Assembly: GCA_027082875.1 (NCBI GenBank)
Contig: JALWTK010000117.1
Coordinates: 1-52,883 of the forward strand
Direction of reading: 5' to 3'
DNA: 52,883 nucleotides
Source: Sulfurimonas sp.
Lineage (GTDB): Bacteria; Campylobacterota; Campylobacteria; Campylobacterales; Sulfurimonadaceae
Shown: positions 28,032 through 52,883 of the stretch, one piece after another
Layout of the letters: every line of letters begins with the position of its first letter
How positions within the stretch are numbered: the stretch's first letter is position 1
Notes under the pieces: generated by a model
What the model saw: only the letters and a program-made list of their open reading frames with translations
The model's database searches: none
Told to the model about the DNA's origin: nothing
Translations under genes and position numbers: made by a program

Positions 28032-30869
28032 TTATGCTTTGTAAATTTTTACAGCACACTTTTTGTAGTCTGTTTGCTTTGACTGAGGACAAGTCGCATC
28101 AAGACATACTTTGTTGATAAATACTTTCTCATCAAACCAAGGCACAAAGACAAGTCCACGAGGTGGTCTATTTCTACCACGAGTTTCAACATGAGCTTTT
28201 ACACGACCACGACGAGATTCAACCCAACATAGTTCACCCTGTTTTAAGCCTTTTTCTTCAGCAGTTTTAGGGTTCATATAACAAAGAGCCTCTGGAACTG
28301 CACGGAAAAGTTCAGGTACACGCATAGTCATAGTTCCTGAGTGCCAGTGCTCAAGCACACGACCAGTTGCTAGCCATGTATCGTACTCTTTATCTGGTAC
28401 TTCAGGAGGATCCATGTACGGACGAGCAAAGATTTTCGCCTTATCTGGTAGAGGTTTTTTCTTTGTATCTGTAATACCAAGAAGATTCCCTTGTTTAAGT
28501 GATTTAGCAAGTGGACCGTAGAAAGCATGTGTAGATTTACTACCTGATTTTGCTACTGCTGCTGCTGCATATGGATCATATTTAACATTGAAACGCCAAG
28601 GTGTTTCTTTACCATTTACAACTGGCCATTTAAGTCCACGAACTTTATGGTAAGTAACGAAGTCAGCTAAGTCATGACCATGACCACGACCAAATGAAGC
28701 ATACTCTTCCCAAAGGTATTGATGGACCATAAAGCCACAACCTTTAGCAACTTTACCATCACCACCAATTACATTTCTCTTATCGCCATTACAATCAGAG
28801 TTATCATACCCTTTTTGTGGGAATTTATCTAAGGTGATCGGGTAGTTCTTCTTCGCACGTTCATTAGCATAAAGAATTTCATACATTGTTGTATCACCTT
28901 TATAGCCCATCTCGTAAGCAGCTTTTCTAACATCAGAAAGTTTTTTACCACCAACAAGAGTGTATGGACCCCAAAGATCATCAACTGTGAAGCGTTTTGA
29001 AAGTTCCATCCATTGCCATGTATCACTCATCGCATCACCTACAGGAATAACTTGTTGTCTCCAGTGTTGTGAACGACGTTCAGCATTTCCATAAGCTCCC
29101 CACTTCTCATAAATCATTGCAGATGGAAGAACCATATCTGAAACCATGGCAGAGATACCAGGGTAACCATCTGAGGTTACGATGAAGTTATCAAGCTCAC
29201 GAGCCGCTTTAATCCAGTGTTTTGCAGAAGCAGAATCTTGGTAAGCATTACATACATTTACCCATGCAAATTTCACAAGACCATCTTCGATATCACGGTG
29301 GATTTTCATAATGTGTTGGTTACCAACTGGATTTAGTGTTCCCTCTGGAATGTGCCAACCATTTTCTGTTCTCTTTCTATGGTGTGGATTTTTCACCATC
29401 ATATCAGCCGGTAAACGGTGACAGAAAGTACCAACTTCACGAGCAGTACCACAAGCTGAAGGCTGTCCAGTGAGTGAGAATGCACCAGAACCTGGAAGTG
29501 CTTGTTTATTTAGCATAAAGTGAACATTGTAAGAGAGTGTATTTACCCATGTTCCACGTGTATGTTGGTTCATACCCATAGTCCAGAAAGATACTATCTT
29601 ACGACCTTTCTCTATATATAAGTCAGCTAAAGTTTGAAGTTTTTTCTTAAATGACTCGATGTCCTCATCAGGGTCACCCTTAGAAATTTTTGCTACATAA
29701 TCAAGTGTATATGGTGCAAGGAATTTTTTGTACTCTTCAAAAGAGATTTCCCAGTGCTTTAAGCCAGCTGGCTTGTTCTTCATCTCATCACCCTCTTTAT
29801 AACCATATGGTTTTAAGGCTGGTGCTTCCGCTGCAGATACTTTATGTACCATTTCATGGTTTATAGTTTCCATCTCTTTTGCTGAGTACTTACCAGCTGA
29901 TCCATCTTCTCTTACAGGAGAGAGTGATTTCTCACCAGCTCTTCTCATACCGTAACCCATATTGACAGGACTAGCAGCAAAAACAATATTTGTTTTTAAG
30001 AAGTCCCAGTCGATTGCATCTGGATTGTTGTATACGATTTCTCTTGCGATGTAGTTCCACATTGCAAGGTCAGTATTTGGTGTGAAAATTATTTCAATAT
30101 CAGCTAAATCAGAAGTTCTATGTCTATATGTAGACATATTAATAACTCTAACACGATCAGGATCAGAGAGTTTTCTATCTGTTACACGTGACCAGAGAAT
30201 AGGGTGCATCTCTGCCATGTTTGATCCCCAAGAGACTACAGTATCTGTAAGCTCGATATCATCATAACAACCACTTGGCTCATCAATACCAAAAGTTTGA
30301 TAAAAACCAACAACAGCCGAAGCCATACAGTGACGAGCATTTGGATCGATAGCGTTTGATCTAAATCCTCCCTTCATCATCTTCTGAGCTGCATACCCTT
30401 CCATAATAGTATATTGACCAGATGCAAATACAGCTACACCCTCAGGTCCACTCTCTTTAAGTGCTTTACGGATGTTTTTTTCCATCTCATCAAAAGCTCT
30501 CTGCCAAGTGATTTCCCCAAACTCACCATGTTTGTCAAATTCTCCCTTATCATTCATGCGAAGTAGAGGCTTAGTTAATCTATCTGCACCATACATAATC
30601 TTCGCATTAAAGTAACCCTTAATACAGTTTAGACCACGGTTAACTGGTGCTGCTGGATCCCCTTTTACTGCAACGATTTTTCCATTTTTCGTTGCCATCA
30701 TGATTCCACAACCAGTACCACAGAAACGACAAGCTGCCTTGTCCCATCTCCAACCACTCTCAGCTGTATCTGCACTTGCTTGTAGCTCGGCTGGTACACT
30801 CATACCAATAGCCGCTGCCGCAGATGCTGCTGCTGAACTTTTCAGAAAATTTCTTCTTGAAAGTGACAT
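28032..30869 (-). CDS. napA: NapA, molybdenum catalytic subunit of periplasmic nitrate reductase
   Basis: The protein has 945 residues, the long epsilonproteobacterial form. It carries a Tat signal ([17 protein letters not shown]) and a 4Fe-4S site with Cys47, 50, 54 and 82. The molybdenum-ligand Cys lies in [10 protein letters not shown] near residue 180. Bis-MGD-binding motifs and the C-terminal molydopterin-binding segment are present. It reduces nitrate to nitrite in the periplasm. It heads the nap operon behind an FNR-type site. Confidence 0.98.
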
Positions 30870-30925: not shown

Positions 30926-30967
30926 AGTATATCACTGTGTCTATTTGAGAAAATTGATGTAGGTCAA
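30926..30967 (-). promoter_or_regulatory. napA promoter with FNR/CRP-type box
   Basis: The box TTGACCTACATCAA (minus strand, 30967-30954) is a TTGA(T/C)-N4-ATCAA dyad. A -10 hexamer TATACT lies at 30931-30926. The box centre would be at about -41.5 from a start near 30919, the class II position for FNR/CRP-family activators. The predicted leader is about 50 nt. Confidence 0.75.
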
Positions 30968-40069: not shown

Positions 40070-41065
40070 TTATTTATACTGCTTTTCCCATTCCTCTGAA
40101 GCTGGAGTAAAGTACTCTATACGCACTTTTTTAAACTCTCTTGAGGAGTAGAGGGGCATATAGGATTTGTTGGGAATCTCTTTTGCCATCTCTTCTATGA
40201 TTTGGCTTGACTCTTCTGTTGTTTTTGCGTGTACCATTGTAAAAAGATTATATGGCCAGTTAGGATATTTTGGTCGGAGGTAGCAGTGGCTTACTACACT
40301 AAACGCAGCTGCATCAGCACCTATCTCTTCTCCTTTTTCTTCATCAATATCCCATACCACCATAGCATTGGCATTGAAACCTGCTTTTCTATGGTTAAGA
40401 ATGGACGCAAATCTTCTCATAATTCCAGCCTCTTGTAGCTCCTGTAAAATGCTAAAAAATGTTTCATAGTCTGTACCAACTTCTTCTACTATCTTAGCAA
40501 AAGGCTCACTCACCATGTCGATATCATACTGTGCTAAACGGATGATGTCCCTATGAAGTTGTGTGAGTTCTATCTCTTTATGGACAACTTTTTTTACCTT
40601 CTCTTTTTTCTCATCTTTTCCAGTAGTGTTAAGTTTGACATTTATCTTAAAAAGTTTGAGTGTGGGGAGCATTATGTACTCCTGTGCATGTGTGAGTTTT
40701 GCAATGAGAGCTACTGTTTTGTCTAGTCCTAGTTCGCTTGTTGGAGGCACACCAAGTGTAAACCAGATGTTAAACTCATGGTTGCGTTCATAGTTATGTG
40801 AGATACCAGGATGAGAGTTTATGATCTCTACTGCACTATCTATGAGTTCTGGCGCCATCTTCAGTGCGACAAGAGAAGAGCTGTAGCCTAGGCGTTTGGT
40901 ATCAAAGATAGCAGAAGTTTGCCTGATGATGCCATCACTTTTTTCTTTTTGGAGGATAGATAAAACTTCCTCTTCACTCATATCTAACTCTTGAGCGATT
41001 GCCTCAAAAGGTTTAGCAACTAGTGGAAATTTTTTCTGTATTCTTGATAATATTTCATTTTTCAT
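40070..41065 (-). CDS. Fused siroheme decarboxylase (NirD-NirL type)
   Basis: The 331-residue protein has two homologous AsnC/Lrp-like halves. The first (about 1-150) includes the HTH-like SEEEVLSILQKEKSDGIIRQ and ISHNYERNHEFNIWFTL. The second (about 170-325) includes FSILQELQEAGIMRRFASI and SHCYLRPKYPNWPYNLFTMVH. These His/Tyr/Arg-rich patches match Nir D/L/G/H and AhbA/B, which decarboxylate siroheme to didecarbosiroheme for haem d1. A single fused gene replaces several separate subunits. It has its own FNR-type promoter. Confidence 0.9.
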   Translation of the reverse strand: MKNEILSRIQKKFPLVAKPFEAIAQELDMSEEEVLSILQKEKSDGIIRQTSAIFDTKRLGYSSSLVALKMAPELIDSAVEIINSHPGISHNYERNHEFNIWFTLGVPPTSELGLDKTVALIAKLTHAQEYIMLPTLKLFKINVKLNTTGKDEKKEKVKKVVHKEIELTQLHRDIIRLAQYDIDMVSEPFAKIVEEVGTDYETFFSILQELQEAGIMRRFASILNHRKAGFNANAMVVWDIDEEKGEEIGADAAAFSVVSHCYLRPKYPNWPYNLFTMVHAKTTEESSQIIEEMAKEIPNKSYMPLYSSREFKKVRIEYFTPASEEWEKQYK

Positions 41066-46979: not shown

Positions 46980-48617
46980 TTAAGCACCTGGAATTGATTG
47001 GCGATGCTCAATAGAGTAAGTGAAAGTTGGTGTTACTAAACCTTTGATATATTTAACAAATTTACCAGTTTTCGCTTCATAGATACCGATACGACCAGCA
47101 TTCCACTCAGAAACCATTACCCATTTACCATGGTTAGCAGGCTCTGCATGTAAAATACGAGGAATAATAACTTTTCCTTTTTTATCTTTCACAGTTGGAA
47201 CTTTCCAGCTATAAAGAACTTTATGAGTTACAGGATCAGTTATAGTACCTCTTTTCGTACCAACAGTCAGAATTCTATCAATTTTAAGAGATTGTTTACC
47301 AATCAAAGAGATCGTATTCCAATTGTCTTTACCACCTATTACATTGTCAGACCAAATGTATGGAGTGTCTTCACTTGTTCCAACAAAAAGACCACCACCA
47401 GCAGTTCTTACATGTGCAACAACATCCCAGTTTGAATCCCAGATTGCAACATCACCAACATTCATACTATTTGTAGCAAAAAGTTGACCATATCTATCGT
47501 TGTACCAAGATGAACCTTGACCTGGGTGCGGCTTGCTTCCTGGACCAGTATAAACTTTAGCAACTAAAGACTTAGTTTTAAAGTCAACAACACCCATTAC
47601 ATCACTACCTTGTGATGCTTGCATGAGGTAACGACCAATCTCTTTACCTTCATTCTCAAAACCATCATGTAATATTTTACCGATGTTTGGAATATCACCA
47701 ACAATAGGATAATCTGGTTTTGAATAATCTACGATATATACATGCCCAGCATCTTTAAGAGCAAAAGCGATATATGGACCATATGGAGTGTCATAAACAC
47801 CAGCTACACGAGAAGAGCCTATATTTCCATCCATGTCAATAACACTTGAAGTAGGATATACCTTGAGTGGTTCAAGTGTCATAGCATCCATAAGAATTGC
47901 TCCACCTGGTACATAGTTTCCTGCCATTAGGTATTTACCATCAGGAGATACTGCAAGTCCACGAGAGCTAGTTCCGACTTGAACTTGTGCAATTTTTTGC
48001 TGACCTGGTGTGTTTAAGTCAAACATAGTAACTAAACCTGAACGAGAGATAGAGTAAGCATATCGTGGTAGTCTTTTGTTAGTTACTGTAACATGCACTG
48101 CAAAACCAGCAGGGTGTTTTGAAAGAATGGTACCTTTTGTGCCATCAAGAAAGTCAACTCTAGCTGCATCTCTTTCTGTTGCAAAACAGATATCAGTTAC
48201 TTTTTTAACATCTACAGGATGAGGATATTTTTTTAAAAATTTCTCTCTATCATTTATCTTTAACCACCCTTTTTTTACTGCGTCTAAAGTAAGAACTTTA
48301 ATCTTCTCACCTTTAAAATGCTGTAAATAATCCACCATTTTTTGAGCATCAGCTTTATTCATTTTTTCTGCAAATGAAGGCATGGCTGTACCAGGACGAC
48401 CATTTAAGATTGTACTGACGAGTTTATAAGTATTGATTTTAGCGAGCTTATTTGGGCGTAAATCAGCACCAACACCACCTTCATGATTTGGTCCATGACA
48501 TCCTTGACACTCTTGAACAAACATTTTTTTAACATCCATTTTAGATGTTCCAGCAAATAGACCTGTAGAAACAACTGCTAATACTGCAACTGATGTTACT
48601 ATTTTATTTAATTTCAT
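46980..48617 (-). CDS. nirS: Cytochrome cd1 nitrite reductase NirS
   Basis: The 545-residue protein has a signal peptide and a cytochrome c domain with haem motif Cys37-x-x-Cys40-His41 (CQGCH). This is followed by the large d1-haem propeller with family segments CFATERDAARVDFLDG, GLAVSPDGKYLMAGNY, and SDNVIGGKDNW. It reduces nitrite to nitric oxide in the periplasm. No promoter room exists between the upstream hairpin (48649-48673) and its ATG, so it is probably expressed from the nor transcript. Confidence 0.97.
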   Translation of the reverse strand: MKLNKIVTSVAVLAVVSTGLFAGTSKMDVKKMFVQECQGCHGPNHEGGVGADLRPNKLAKINTYKLVSTILNGRPGTAMPSFAEKMNKADAQKMVDYLQHFKGEKIKVLTLDAVKKGWLKINDREKFLKKYPHPVDVKKVTDICFATERDAARVDFLDGTKGTILSKHPAGFAVHVTVTNKRLPRYAYSISRSGLVTMFDLNTPGQQKIAQVQVGTSSRGLAVSPDGKYLMAGNYVPGGAILMDAMTLEPLKVYPTSSVIDMDGNIGSSRVAGVYDTPYGPYIAFALKDAGHVYIVDYSKPDYPIVGDIPNIGKILHDGFENEGKEIGRYLMQASQGSDVMGVVDFKTKSLVAKVYTGPGSKPHPGQGSSWYNDRYGQLFATNSMNVGDVAIWDSNWDVVAHVRTAGGGLFVGTSEDTPYIWSDNVIGGKDNWNTISLIGKQSLKIDRILTVGTKRGTITDPVTHKVLYSWKVPTVKDKKGKVIIPRILHAEPANHGKWVMVSEWNAGRIGIYEAKTGKFVKYIKGLVTPTFTYSIEHRQSIPGA

Positions 48618-48844: not shown

Positions 48845-50284
48845 TTATCTTTCGTGAACGGGATTTTTACCCGTTGTAAGTAAATCTTTTGCAAGTAAAA
48901 CAAAGCCTAAGAATGTGATAACACCCATAATGAGTCTCCAGTCCATAGCTTGTGTAAACCATGCACCACCTTGACCATCAAAGTATGCAGCCCATGTTGC
49001 TCCCATTTGTGCACGAGATACGATAACTTGTACATATCCAGCGATAGTTAAGGCAACTGTCATTCCCATAACACCACCTGTAATCATACTTACTGCCCAG
49101 ATAGAAGCTTTTGTGTTTTTCATAACTTTGATACCATTTTTACCTTGAACAGCGAGGTACATCATACCAACAAGAATAGTTGCATAAGCACCAAAGAATG
49201 CTAAGTGACCATGTGCTGAAGTAAACTGTGTACCGTGTGTATAAAGGTTTATCTGTGGTAGTGTATGGAAAAATCCCCAAACACCAGCACCTAAGAAGTT
49301 ACCAAAAGCATTGAGTACAAACCATGTAAATGCAGGTTTATTTTTAATAACTGATTTAACATGCCCTTCATCTGTATGCTCAGAATTCATTTCTGCACCC
49401 TGAGTTTTACCCCAGTCATAAAGTACATGCACGAACATTGCTACGAGTGGTAGTGGTTCTAGTGCTGAGAACAGTGCCCCGATTTCCCACCAGTACTCAG
49501 GAGTACCGATCCAGAAGTAGTGGTGACCCATACCTAAGATACCTGAACCAAAAAGCATAGCAACTTCGATCCATAACCACATCTCAACAACTTTACGGTG
49601 AGCACCAATCATAGTGATAAGACCATAAGCTGCAATTGCACCAACAAAAACTTCCCAAGTTGCTTCAACCCAAAGGTGAATTACCCACCACCACCAGTAC
49701 TGATCTACTGAGATGTTATCTGTAAAGAACATACCTGCTAGATATAAACCAGCAAAGGCAATCATATCTGCCATAAGAACTGTAACGATACCTGTTTGCT
49801 TACCTTTCATTCCTGTTAAGAAAAGATTCCCAACAAATGTAAGTGCAACAACAACAATACCAAAATCAGCCCAACGTGGTGCTTCTATATATTCACGACC
49901 CTCTGTGATAAACCAAATAGTTGTATCGGATGCAGGACCAACTTGAATAAGAAGGAATACTAAAACAACTACAACAATAGCAGCTACAAAAATCCAGTAT
50001 ACAAGTTTTCCTGCTTTAATACCAATAGTTTCGATACCTGTTTCGTCTGGAAGTAACCAGTAAACAGAACCAAACATAGCAAAAACCATCCATACAACAA
50101 GTGCATTAATGTGGAGTATTCTTGCAATTGAAAAGTCAAGAATACCGTATAAAAAACCAGGCATTACATACTGAATAGCTGCAATAAGACCAAAAAGTAA
50201 TTGAGCACCAAACAAGATAGCTGCAAAAGTTAAGTACCAAGTTGCTAACTGTTTTGACTCTGAAGTTAAATGATTATTTGCCAT
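48845..50284 (-). CDS. norB: NorB, nitric oxide reductase catalytic subunit (cNOR)
   Basis: The 479-residue protein has about 12 helices of the haem-copper oxidase fold. The low-spin haem His lies in RILHINALVVWMVFAMFGS. The active-site segment is WWWWVIHLWVEATWEVFVG, with Glu residues typical of NOR. The downstream pair lies in TSAHGHLAFFGAYATI. It reduces two NO to N2O with electrons from NorC. It overlaps norC by 11 bp. Confidence 0.95.
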   Translation of the reverse strand: MANNHLTSESKQLATWYLTFAAILFGAQLLFGLIAAIQYVMPGFLYGILDFSIARILHINALVVWMVFAMFGSVYWLLPDETGIETIGIKAGKLVYWIFVAAIVVVVLVFLLIQVGPASDTTIWFITEGREYIEAPRWADFGIVVVALTFVGNLFLTGMKGKQTGIVTVLMADMIAFAGLYLAGMFFTDNISVDQYWWWWVIHLWVEATWEVFVGAIAAYGLITMIGAHRKVVEMWLWIEVAMLFGSGILGMGHHYFWIGTPEYWWEIGALFSALEPLPLVAMFVHVLYDWGKTQGAEMNSEHTDEGHVKSVIKNKPAFTWFVLNAFGNFLGAGVWGFFHTLPQINLYTHGTQFTSAHGHLAFFGAYATILVGMMYLAVQGKNGIKVMKNTKASIWAVSMITGGVMGMTVALTIAGYVQVIVSRAQMGATWAAYFDGQGGAWFTQAMDWRLIMGVITFLGFVLLAKDLLTTGKNPVHER

Positions 50285-50960
50285 TGATTGCTCCTTTCAT
50301 TTTCCCAAAGTTTCTTGGAAAACCATTTGTATCTATAGAAGACATATGCTTTAAAAATGCTACAAGACCGATAGCCTCTTCCTTTGTAATACCAAGGTTT
50401 GGCATCATACGTGCATGTGTTGCATAAAGTTCAGGATGTTGTAAAAACTCTGCCATCGCTTCTTCTTTAGTAGGTTTATTTGTAATCGCTTGCATAGTTC
50501 CATTTGGACCCCATGCTGGATCTAACCAAGCCTTTGTTAAGTCAGGTGCATAGTAAGCACCATTTCCAAGTAATGTATGACAATCCATACAGTTTTTCGC
50601 TTGTGAACCAAGTTTTCCAAGGTGAAGCATCTCTCTTGCTTCTTTCTCACTCCAATCATCACGACCAAAAAATTTCTCTTTTTCTTGAAACAATGAATTA
50701 CCTTTTCCATCGTTTCCACCAATCACAGGAACCTCATGACCGCGTTTAGCACTCATTTCATATGTTATCTTGTAGTTGATAACTGTCGGTCCTGGAACTC
50801 TTTTTGTAACCCCATTTTGTAAATCTTCATTAGTCCCCATCGAAATCTGTGCCGATGTATCAAATGTAAGCCAAATAAGCAATATAGATGCAAATCCCGT
50901 GACCCATGTTGCTGAACGTCGCCAGAAACGGTTGTCATTCCAAACAGATTTATTTGCCAT
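50274..50960 (-). CDS. norC: NorC, cytochrome c subunit of nitric oxide reductase
   Basis: The ATG at 50960 has an excellent AAGGAG site 6 nt upstream. The longer frame to 51026 is not supported. The 228-residue protein has one N-terminal helix (WVTGFASILLIWLTF) and haem motif Cys124-x-x-Cys127-His128 (CMDCH). A distal Met lies in ARMMPNLGIT. It carries electrons to NorB. It overlaps both the upstream membrane gene and norB by 11 bp. Confidence 0.95.
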   Translation of the reverse strand: MANKSVWNDNRFWRRSATWVTGFASILLIWLTFDTSAQISMGTNEDLQNGVTKRVPGPTVINYKITYEMSAKRGHEVPVIGGNDGKGNSLFQEKEKFFGRDDWSEKEAREMLHLGKLGSQAKNCMDCHTLLGNGAYYAPDLTKAWLDPAWGPNGTMQAITNKPTKEEAMAEFLQHPELYATHARMMPNLGITKEEAIGLVAFLKHMSSIDTNGFPRNFGKMKGAINGK

Positions 50961-51303
50961 TCTCTTCTCCTTGTGTCTCATGTTCGTTACTTTTGTGAAC
51001 ATTGTCTTCCATATAGTAAACAGCAAAAGGAAGTATAAAAAGTCCTATCGCTGCTACTACTAAAGCCTTCGCAGTAAACGAGCCTACATGCATCAAGCTC
51101 CCCATGACATAAAGACAGTAAGCTGTCAAAGTCCAAAAACCATAAGCTATAATGATAGCCCATGGCTTTAGAAATTCTACCTTCACTGCCGTATATATGC
51201 CAACATAAACCCCTCCAAAAACTAATACTAAAGCAGATGAAACAAAGATAGGAAGAAAATCATTTAATGCTATCTCTGGTCGAATCATTGCTGGATCTAT
51301 CAT
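50950..51303 (-). CDS. Three-helix membrane protein heading the nor operon
   Basis: The ATG at 51303 has AAAGG at the right distance; the longer frame from 51342 would begin before the predicted transcript start (near 51334). The 117-residue product has three helices (about 15-37, 47-68, 76-94) and a charged C-terminal tail. It is the first gene of the nor transcript under a perfect FNR-type box. Function unknown. A nor-specific accessory role is inferred from position. Confidence 0.7.
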   Translation of the reverse strand: MIDPAMIRPEIALNDFLPIFVSSALVLVFGGVYVGIYTAVKVEFLKPWAIIIAYGFWTLTAYCLYVMGSLMHVGSFTAKALVVAAIGLFILPFAVYYMEDNVHKSNEHETQGEENGK

Positions 51304-51340
51304 CTGTATACCTTTAAAATAATATTTTTGAACTGTTAAC

Positions 51341-51382
51341 ATTCTATTACCTTCTAAAAGTTAATAGATTGATATATATCAA
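51341..51382 (-). promoter_or_regulatory. FNR/CRP-type promoter of the nor operon
   Basis: The perfect dyad TTGATATATATCAA (51369-51382) is followed on the minus strand by TAGAAT (51346-51341). The start would be near 51334, giving a 31-nt leader and a dyad centred at about -41.5. Confidence 0.8.
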
Positions 51383-51575: not shown

Positions 51576-52190
51576 ATGACATTTACGAGCTCAATCGAGT
51601 TATTGTCTTTTCACTGGGTCGCTTATAGCATATACTCAGCAATGATACTTTCAGTTATTGCTTGGTTTGGATATAACCTCACACGTGAAAAAGCAAAATC
51701 AGTTTTTCGCATACCATTCTATTGGTATATGGCATTTTTAGTTGCAGGTGGTGTGGGACATCACATCTTTACATACAACACTATTCCATGGGTGTCACAG
51801 GATATTGATAGACACAATATTACACCTGATGCAAAATATGAGTTTAAGATAAAAGAGCATAAGTGGATAGGTTTACCAAAGCAAGTTCTTATTCAGTGTG
51901 GTCAGACAATAGAGTTTGACGTACATAGTGAAGATCTGGTTTATGGTTTTGGACTTTTCCGTCAAGATGGTTCATTAGTAATGCAGATGCAGGTTAATCC
52001 TGGAACGGATGTCAATGGAATACTTGATTCTAATGAGATTCTTTGGACATTTAATCATAATGGTGTTTTTAACTTAACTTCTACAGAATACTCTGGACCA
52101 GCTGAATATACAGAAGATGGAAAAGATTTAATGCTTGTAAAAAACTTTGTAAAAGTTGAAGGGTGTAAAGATAATGGAGAAAAACAATGA
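51576..52190 (+). CDS. Subunit II-like cupredoxin of a haem-copper-type oxidoreductase, lacking CuA ligands
   Basis: The 204-residue protein has two N-terminal helices (about 13-33, 47-66) and a C-terminal cupredoxin-like domain (about 85-195), as in cytochrome oxidase subunit II. In true CuA subunits a CxExCGxxH motif binds copper. The matching segment here is STEYSGPAEY (169-178), so both Cys are Ser (169, 173) and the His is Glu177. The first His (His117, in FDVHSED) remains. This fits a NO reductase or quinol-linked enzyme rather than a cytochrome c oxidase. It overlaps the next gene (ATGA). Confidence 0.8.
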   Translation: MTFTSSIELLSFHWVAYSIYSAMILSVIAWFGYNLTREKAKSVFRIPFYWYMAFLVAGGVGHHIFTYNTIPWVSQDIDRHNITPDAKYEFKIKEHKWIGLPKQVLIQCGQTIEFDVHSEDLVYGFGLFRQDGSLVMQMQVNPGTDVNGILDSNEILWTFNHNGVFNLTSTEYSGPAEYTEDGKDLMLVKNFVKVEGCKDNGEKQ

Positions 52191-52883
52191 GTTTTGCTAA
52201 AAATTTAGTAAATGGTACAAACTTTGACCATACGAGTTTAAATGCTTTACAAAAGGTAACACTTCGTGCTGTTGTTATGGCATTTTTATTTTATGGTTTA
52301 GTGGCGATTGAGGGAATGATTATGAGAATGGTAGAAGTAGGACATGTTCCTGGTAATCCACTTCCTGATCAGTTTTTTCATCCTGAACACTTTTTCTCTA
52401 TTATGACTGTGCATCCAATTGTTGGTATTTTTGGTTCAACCTATCAGCTTGTTTTTGGTGCTTTTACATTCTTGGTACCGTATCTTACAAAGAAACCACT
52501 CTTTAGTGTGAAAATTGCTAATGCAAGTTGGTTACTTATTACTATAGGTACTGCTCTTGCTTGGATAGCTGCGTTTGTGTGGAGTTATGCACCGCTTTAT
52601 ACTCTATACTGGCCACTTCCTGCTGATACACATCAGTTTCATGTACTTGGTGGTATCGTATTTATTACTGGTGTGGCACTTATTATGGTGGGTACACTTC
52701 TATTTATCTACAACATCTATGCAACTATTTTTGCTCGAGTAGGTGTACATAAAAATAAAACAACAAAAGAACTACTTATTTCCGGTTTTGGTATTGATGG
52801 ATTTTTAAATCTTATCAATAAGCTTCGTGGAAAGCAGCCTTACTCAAAAGAGCCTGCACTTGCTCTTCCTGTTGTTGCGATTT
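52187..52883 (+). CDS. Subunit I-like haem-copper oxidoreductase, 3' end outside window
   Basis: The first ~232 residues are visible. After an N-terminal helix, the segment FSIMTVHPIVGIFGSTYQLVF holds the His expected to bind low-spin haem. Further helices include WLLITIGTALAWIAAFVW, a conserved WSYAPLYTLYWPLP, and FHVLGGIVFITGVALIMVGT. This is the haem-copper oxidase/NO reductase fold but distinct from NorB in this window. With a CuA-less subunit II and an FNR-type promoter opposite norCB, a second, non-canonical NO reductase is likely. The active-site residues lie beyond the window. Confidence 0.78.
   Translation, partial: MSFAKNLVNGTNFDHTSLNALQKVTLRAVVMAFLFYGLVAIEGMIMRMVEVGHVPGNPLPDQFFHPEHFFSIMTVHPIVGIFGSTYQLVFGAFTFLVPYLTKKPLFSVKIANASWLLITIGTALAWIAAFVWSYAPLYTLYWPLPADTHQFHVLGGIVFITGVALIMVGTLLFIYNIYATIFARVGVHKNKTTKELLISGFGIDGFLNLINKLRGKQPYSKEPALALPVVAI

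Follow-up and report, generated by a model that had tools for sequence, protein, structure and literature searches.

A gene pair at the contig end and its surroundings

The final 1.3 kb of the window, as we call the whole analysed stretch of 52,883 nucleotides from Sulfurimonas sp. (the entire contig G000:C117), hold two genes, the putative subunits II and I of a gNOR, whose open reading frames overlap by 4 nt (Table 1). Both frames lie at the positions where an earlier note on this DNA had placed them. The pair borders a nitrate-respiration and denitrification region that comprises NapA-like, NirDL-like and nirE/nirF/nirJ-like genes, nirS and norCB. The small hydrophobic frame at the head of the norCB operon possibly encodes an additional membrane subunit of NOR. 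NosZ had no match in the window's own assembly; most of the relatives tested do match. Three proteins of the genome contain the PF00115 domain, namely a CcoN-like protein of the cbb3 type, NorB and subunit I of the pair.

Table 1. Genes and predicted regulatory sites of the window
Feature	Position	Strand	Remarks
Predicted gNOR subunit II	51576..52190	+	204 aa; two predicted N-terminal helices, then cupredoxin domain without CuA ligands
Predicted gNOR subunit I, first 232 aa only	52187..52883	+	Open; gene cut by contig end
FNR-like palindrome TTGATGTATGTCAA	51500..51513	.	First base 76 nt before subunit II start
FNR-like palindrome TTGATATATATCAA	51369..51382	.	Nor-gene side; 27 nt upstream of divergent ORF starting at 51342
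Hydrophobic ORF at head of norCB operon	50950-51342	-	130 aa; no convincing family match
NorC-like c-type cytochrome	50274..51026	-	Cytochrom_C PF00034, E 6e-6; one CxxCH
NorB of canonical cNOR	48845..50284	-	HLWVE motif, HH, third Glu at 276
NirS cytochrome cd1 nitrite reductase	46980..48617	-	PF02239, E 1.6e-60 at 47013-48194
NirDL-like protein	40070-41065		Named by inspection
NapA-like molybdoprotein	28032-30869		Named by inspection
nirE/nirF/nirJ-like genes	In window		Named by inspection

A search of the assembly did not find the remainder of the window's own subunit I elsewhere. The nearest relatives of the pair come from Sulfurimonas genomes, with 96% and 95% identity over the shared part, and the truncated protein was completed from these, using the full-length homologue at L002:1501-3186 (the 96% identical one); full-length homologues of subunit I were also gathered from genomes across the phylum. 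Among the loci examined, the divergent arrangement with norCB occurs only in the window and in its nearest relatives, L031 and L032, which cover the regions also labelled L002 and L003, and a general linkage of gNOR to norCB was accordingly rejected. In L031, subunit I is followed on its 3' side by two uncharacterised genes, an arrangement common to most homologous loci: of the 85 loci with enough downstream sequence, 82 have a match to the first (a protein of ~175 aa with a hydrophobic stretch) and 70 to the second (a weakly YcxB-like protein of ~165 aa). The two products look like operon partners of gNOR. Four genomes with a more distant Sulfurimonas group of gNOR (~67% identical) were tested, and the YcxB-like gene was not found in them.

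The two FNR-type sites upstream of the pair (Table 1) could be confirmed, and sites of this type are conserved among relatives; the earlier note had placed the pair, divergent from norCB, under FNR-type control. An FNR-like palindrome is present within 320 nt upstream of gNOR in 74 of 99 distinct homologous loci, mostly ~70 nt before the start, compared with 0.035 expected from the background rate, although the upstream regions are mutually related and the 74 loci are therefore not independent events. Within the window, such palindromes lie at 30954, 34985, 46914, 51369 and 51500, and the total with up to one mismatch allowed (8, against 5.3 expected) is not above chance.

Subunit II and the CuA site

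Pfam and NCBIfam searches gave no family name for subunit II. A profile built from 58 homologues, when compared with the PDB, matched the CuA domain of the Thermus thermophilus ba3 oxidase (1ehk_B, E 2.3e-5) as well as engineered Thermus CuA proteins (6pty, E 1.9e-8). The AlphaFold model (mean pLDDT 85) combines a beta domain with two long helices; it resembles oxidase subunits II with Z about 10, the E. coli bo3 subunit II ranking first in a tie. We read the protein as a cupredoxin anchored in the membrane and homologous to subunit II of haem-copper enzymes.

Alignment with annotated oxidase subunits II indicates that all CuA side-chain ligands tested are replaced (His by Tyr123, Cys by Ser169, Cys by Ser173 and His by Glu177) and that Glu171 is retained. 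Across 105 distinct subunit II sequences, residue 123 is always Tyr, residue 169 is Ser in 102, residue 173 is Ser in 95 and Ala in 10, residue 177 is never His, and Glu171 is invariant; none of the sequences restores a Cys or His at the listed ligand positions. As judged from these residues, CuA cannot form in subunit II. The earlier note had reached the same view from Ser169, Ser173 and Glu177, which it numbered correctly and which do align with the CuA Cys, Cys and His, and it overlooked the second lost His, at Tyr123.

Each of the 105 sequences contains exactly two Cys residues. One is Cys197 in every case, and the other is either Cys108 (83 sequences) or Cys162 (22 sequences), never both; by this pattern, the pair looks like a disulfide with a switched partner.

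The active site of subunit I and assignment to gNOR

Subunit I is a haem-copper-type protein distinct from the adjacent NorB, as had been proposed. The PF00115 match has an E-value of 9.7e-17 for the window fragment and 5e-50 for the full homologue, which it mostly covers. The single sequence found no match in the PDB, and its profile found weak cbb3 matches only; the AlphaFold model (pTM 0.83, mean pLDDT 79, below 50 in the metal-site segment at ~281-288) resembles haem-copper subunit I structures with Z about 30.

The window's own copy ends before the active site, and the ligands were read from the 96% identical homologue and from more distant ones. Both low-spin haem His residues and the proximal His are kept in the full-length homologues: H76, H425 and H427, together with H335 and H336, the last two His residues of the metal site, are present in every one of 51 homologues, whose identity ranges down to 66%. 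All 51 sequences likewise have Asp285 where the first metal-site (CuB) His would stand and Asp289 at the place of the cross-link Tyr. Helix VI reads FWWGLDLVADG, so that DLVAD takes the place of the HPxVY motif, the CuB His-Tyr pair characteristic of B-type enzymes. The register of this helix was determined by ungapped sliding against nine reference rows, comprising oxidases and cNOR; aligning D285 with the CuB His and D289 with the Tyr/Glu position gave the top score for eight of the nine, including the A-type, B-type and cNOR rows, and the ccoN row preferred the register with L284 opposite the His. The latter register, which MAFFT produced in a gapped alignment, was rejected because it requires two compensating gaps within the helix and scores worse without gaps for eight of nine references. 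In hhalign, the alignment is broken at this helix.

At the four positions that we take, by reference to ba3, to be the Tyr, Tyr, Ser and Thr of the B-type K-channel, the homologues have V/I/A296, W300, Q363 and A366. Subunit I also contains Glu359, which aligns with Glu276 of the neighbouring NorB and falls on Ile, Val or Leu-like residues in the aligned A- and B-type oxidases. Judged by its spacing to the HH pair, NorB Glu276 corresponds to Glu280 of Pseudomonas cNOR, thought to be on the route of protons to the active site (PMC6713497).

These residues bear directly on the question of whether the substrate is oxygen. A divergent B-type quinol oxidase, with the Tyr replaced and O2 still the substrate, would be in keeping with the tied first rank of the bo3 subunit II, with the loss of CuA that is known in quinol oxidases too, and with the closest plasmid-borne relatives, which are b(o/a)3-type oxidases. 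In the earlier note, the Tyr-His site and proton channels of an oxygen reductase in a complete subunit I would have counted against its reading; in the completed homologue, the Tyr is Asp289, the CuB His is Asp285 and the compared K-channel positions are not kept. The invariance of both Asp residues, the location of the pair among nitrate, nitrite and NO genes with FNR-like sites, its tracking of nirS (see below) and the CcoN-like protein of the cbb3 type that the genome has separately for oxygen combine to make an oxygen reductase very unlikely.

The residue pattern fits the published definition of gNOR, including its occurrence in Sulfurimonas, and it is on this basis that we assign the pair. 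That definition specifies the active-site residue D and no proton channel, with Sulfurimonas, Sulfurovum and Persephonella as carriers (PMC8756737 Table A4, modified from Hemp & Gennis 2008); the same table gives Gln at the Tyr position in eNOR and Asn in sNOR and CuANOR. Replacement of a metal-site His by Asp has been described for certain NOR types (PMC3475470). D289, the Asp that replaces the active-site Tyr, is present in all 51 homologues, as is D285, the Asp that replaces a metal-site His, the truncated copy of the window ending before both; the cupredoxin subunit II without CuA is present, and the absence of a conserved oxygen-reductase proton channel fits at the four K-channel positions compared. 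The tie of D285 to gNOR specifically is in part our assumption. The candidates eNOR, sNOR and bNOR were rejected on the Asp at the Tyr position in all homologues, and cNOR on Asp285 in place of His and on a cupredoxin rather than a cytochrome c subunit. In a tree that includes no named gNOR, sNOR, eNOR or nNOR references, and in which the C and cNOR branches are very long and the deeper branching unreliable, the 17 gNOR rows form one group apart from the A- and B-type rows with support of 98/99.

Taken together, the pair very probably is a gNOR, a two-subunit enzyme predicted to reduce 2 NO to N2O and H2O and most likely derived from the B-type oxygen reductases. The earlier suggestion of a non-canonical NO reductase of the gNOR group rather than an oxidase is thus borne out by Asp285, Asp289, the unkept K-channel positions and the published definition, except that gNOR was called recently proposed and dates from 2008. 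Reportedly, gNOR (norGH) occurs in Sulfurimonas, Sulfurovum, Persephonella and Ca. Methylomirabilis, in accounts attributed to Sievert 2008, Hemp & Gennis 2008 and Murali et al. The window pair adds another copy of a predicted enzyme already reported from Sulfurimonas and is no new system. In the literature, gNOR is described as quinone-oxidizing and non-electrogenic, with genes norGH (PMC8906906), and in 2024 was counted among the proposed, not characterised, enzymes (PMC11388526); we found no published assay of NO reduction by gNOR, an activity that we infer. The scores of gNOR against curated NCBIfam models all stayed well short of the cut-offs, the highest being to cytochrome c oxidase subunit I, and annotation pipelines may mistake it for an oxidase.

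Distribution, proposed role and comparison with known systems

Within a sample of 397 genomes of the phylum Campylobacterota, gNOR is present in 47. NirS or a divergent cd1-like gene was found in 43 of these and in 35 of 350 genomes without gNOR (Fisher p about 2e-31), and cNOR in 41 of 47 and 33 of 350, respectively, counts and p-value alike ignoring shared ancestry and assembly gaps. In six gNOR genomes, cNOR was not found: G259 and G464 contain NirS, and gNOR is the one NOR found there; G255, G273, G354 and G393, where gNOR is likewise the only one, had no NirS and no NirK match above the cut-off. A tandem pair of divergent cd1-like genes, ~30% identical to NirS, lies beside norB in many Campylobacterota (G328, G183, G187 and others).

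The frequent presence of cNOR raises the question of what a second enzyme would do. Scavenging of NO for detoxification only, which involves the same chemistry under another physiology and is compatible with the gNOR assignment, is possible but somewhat doubtful: the 41 genomes that already have cNOR, the published prediction of a non-electrogenic enzyme (PMC8906906) and the four genomes with no detected NO-forming nitrite reductase agree with it, and the conserved FNR-like control, which is not obviously NO-specific, the tight linkage to nirS across the phylum genomes and the two NirS genomes in which no NOR other than gNOR was found do not. A nitric oxide dismutase, or another NO conversion instead of simple reduction, is extremely unlikely. 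In putative dismutases, a metal ligand is changed too, from His to Asn (PMC3413370), but these proteins resemble qNOR, consist of a single chain and are substituted differently; gNOR has two subunits, with subunit II resembling a CuA domain, and shares most of its genomes with cNOR.

We favour a gNOR that reduces NO. Its ancestor would most likely be a B-type oxygen reductase refitted for this reaction, with electrons entering from quinol and not through CuA. A carboxylate-rich site formed by Asp285, His335 and His336, with Asp289 and Glu359 near, would hold a non-haem metal, for which iron coordinated by two His and one carboxylate is plausible; the acids Asp289 and Glu359 may relay protons, and the enzyme is predicted to be non-pumping. 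Expressed under FNR-type control together with the nitrate, nitrite and NO genes, gNOR would work next to cNOR and offer the NO from NirS a second sink, probably linked to quinol. The combined proposal that the site is a 2-His-1-carboxylate non-haem iron beside haem and that, in Campylobacterota, gNOR forms a complex or operon with the two downstream proteins is a speculation, and we consider it rather improbable; if true, such a site would depart in architecture from that of characterised NORs, which has three His residues. At vents and redoxclines, Campylobacterota are important as denitrifiers that oxidise sulfur. Whether gNOR makes N2O could be approached concretely through its wide occurrence in the phylum sample, the conserved FNR-like sites and those genomes in which no other NOR was found.

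Compared with known systems, the pair shares with gNOR the active-site Asp, two subunits, a cupredoxin subunit II without CuA, the lack of a conserved oxygen-reductase proton channel and the genus, and no tested difference emerged, the comparison outside Campylobacterota being with the published description rather than reference sequences. With the B-type (ba3) oxygen reductases, it has in common the best profile match of subunit II and, in subunit I, the haem ligands and the last two metal-site His residues; it differs in lacking CuA, the first CuB His, the cross-link Tyr and the compared K-channel positions. To the cNOR encoded by the adjacent norCB, its sequence similarity is remote only. 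The two have the aligned acidic residue four positions after the first metal ligand, the aligned Glu in helix VIII and the presumed reaction in common, but gNOR has a cupredoxin subunit II and no cytochrome c subunit, and Asp285 in a metal site that in cNOR contains three His residues.
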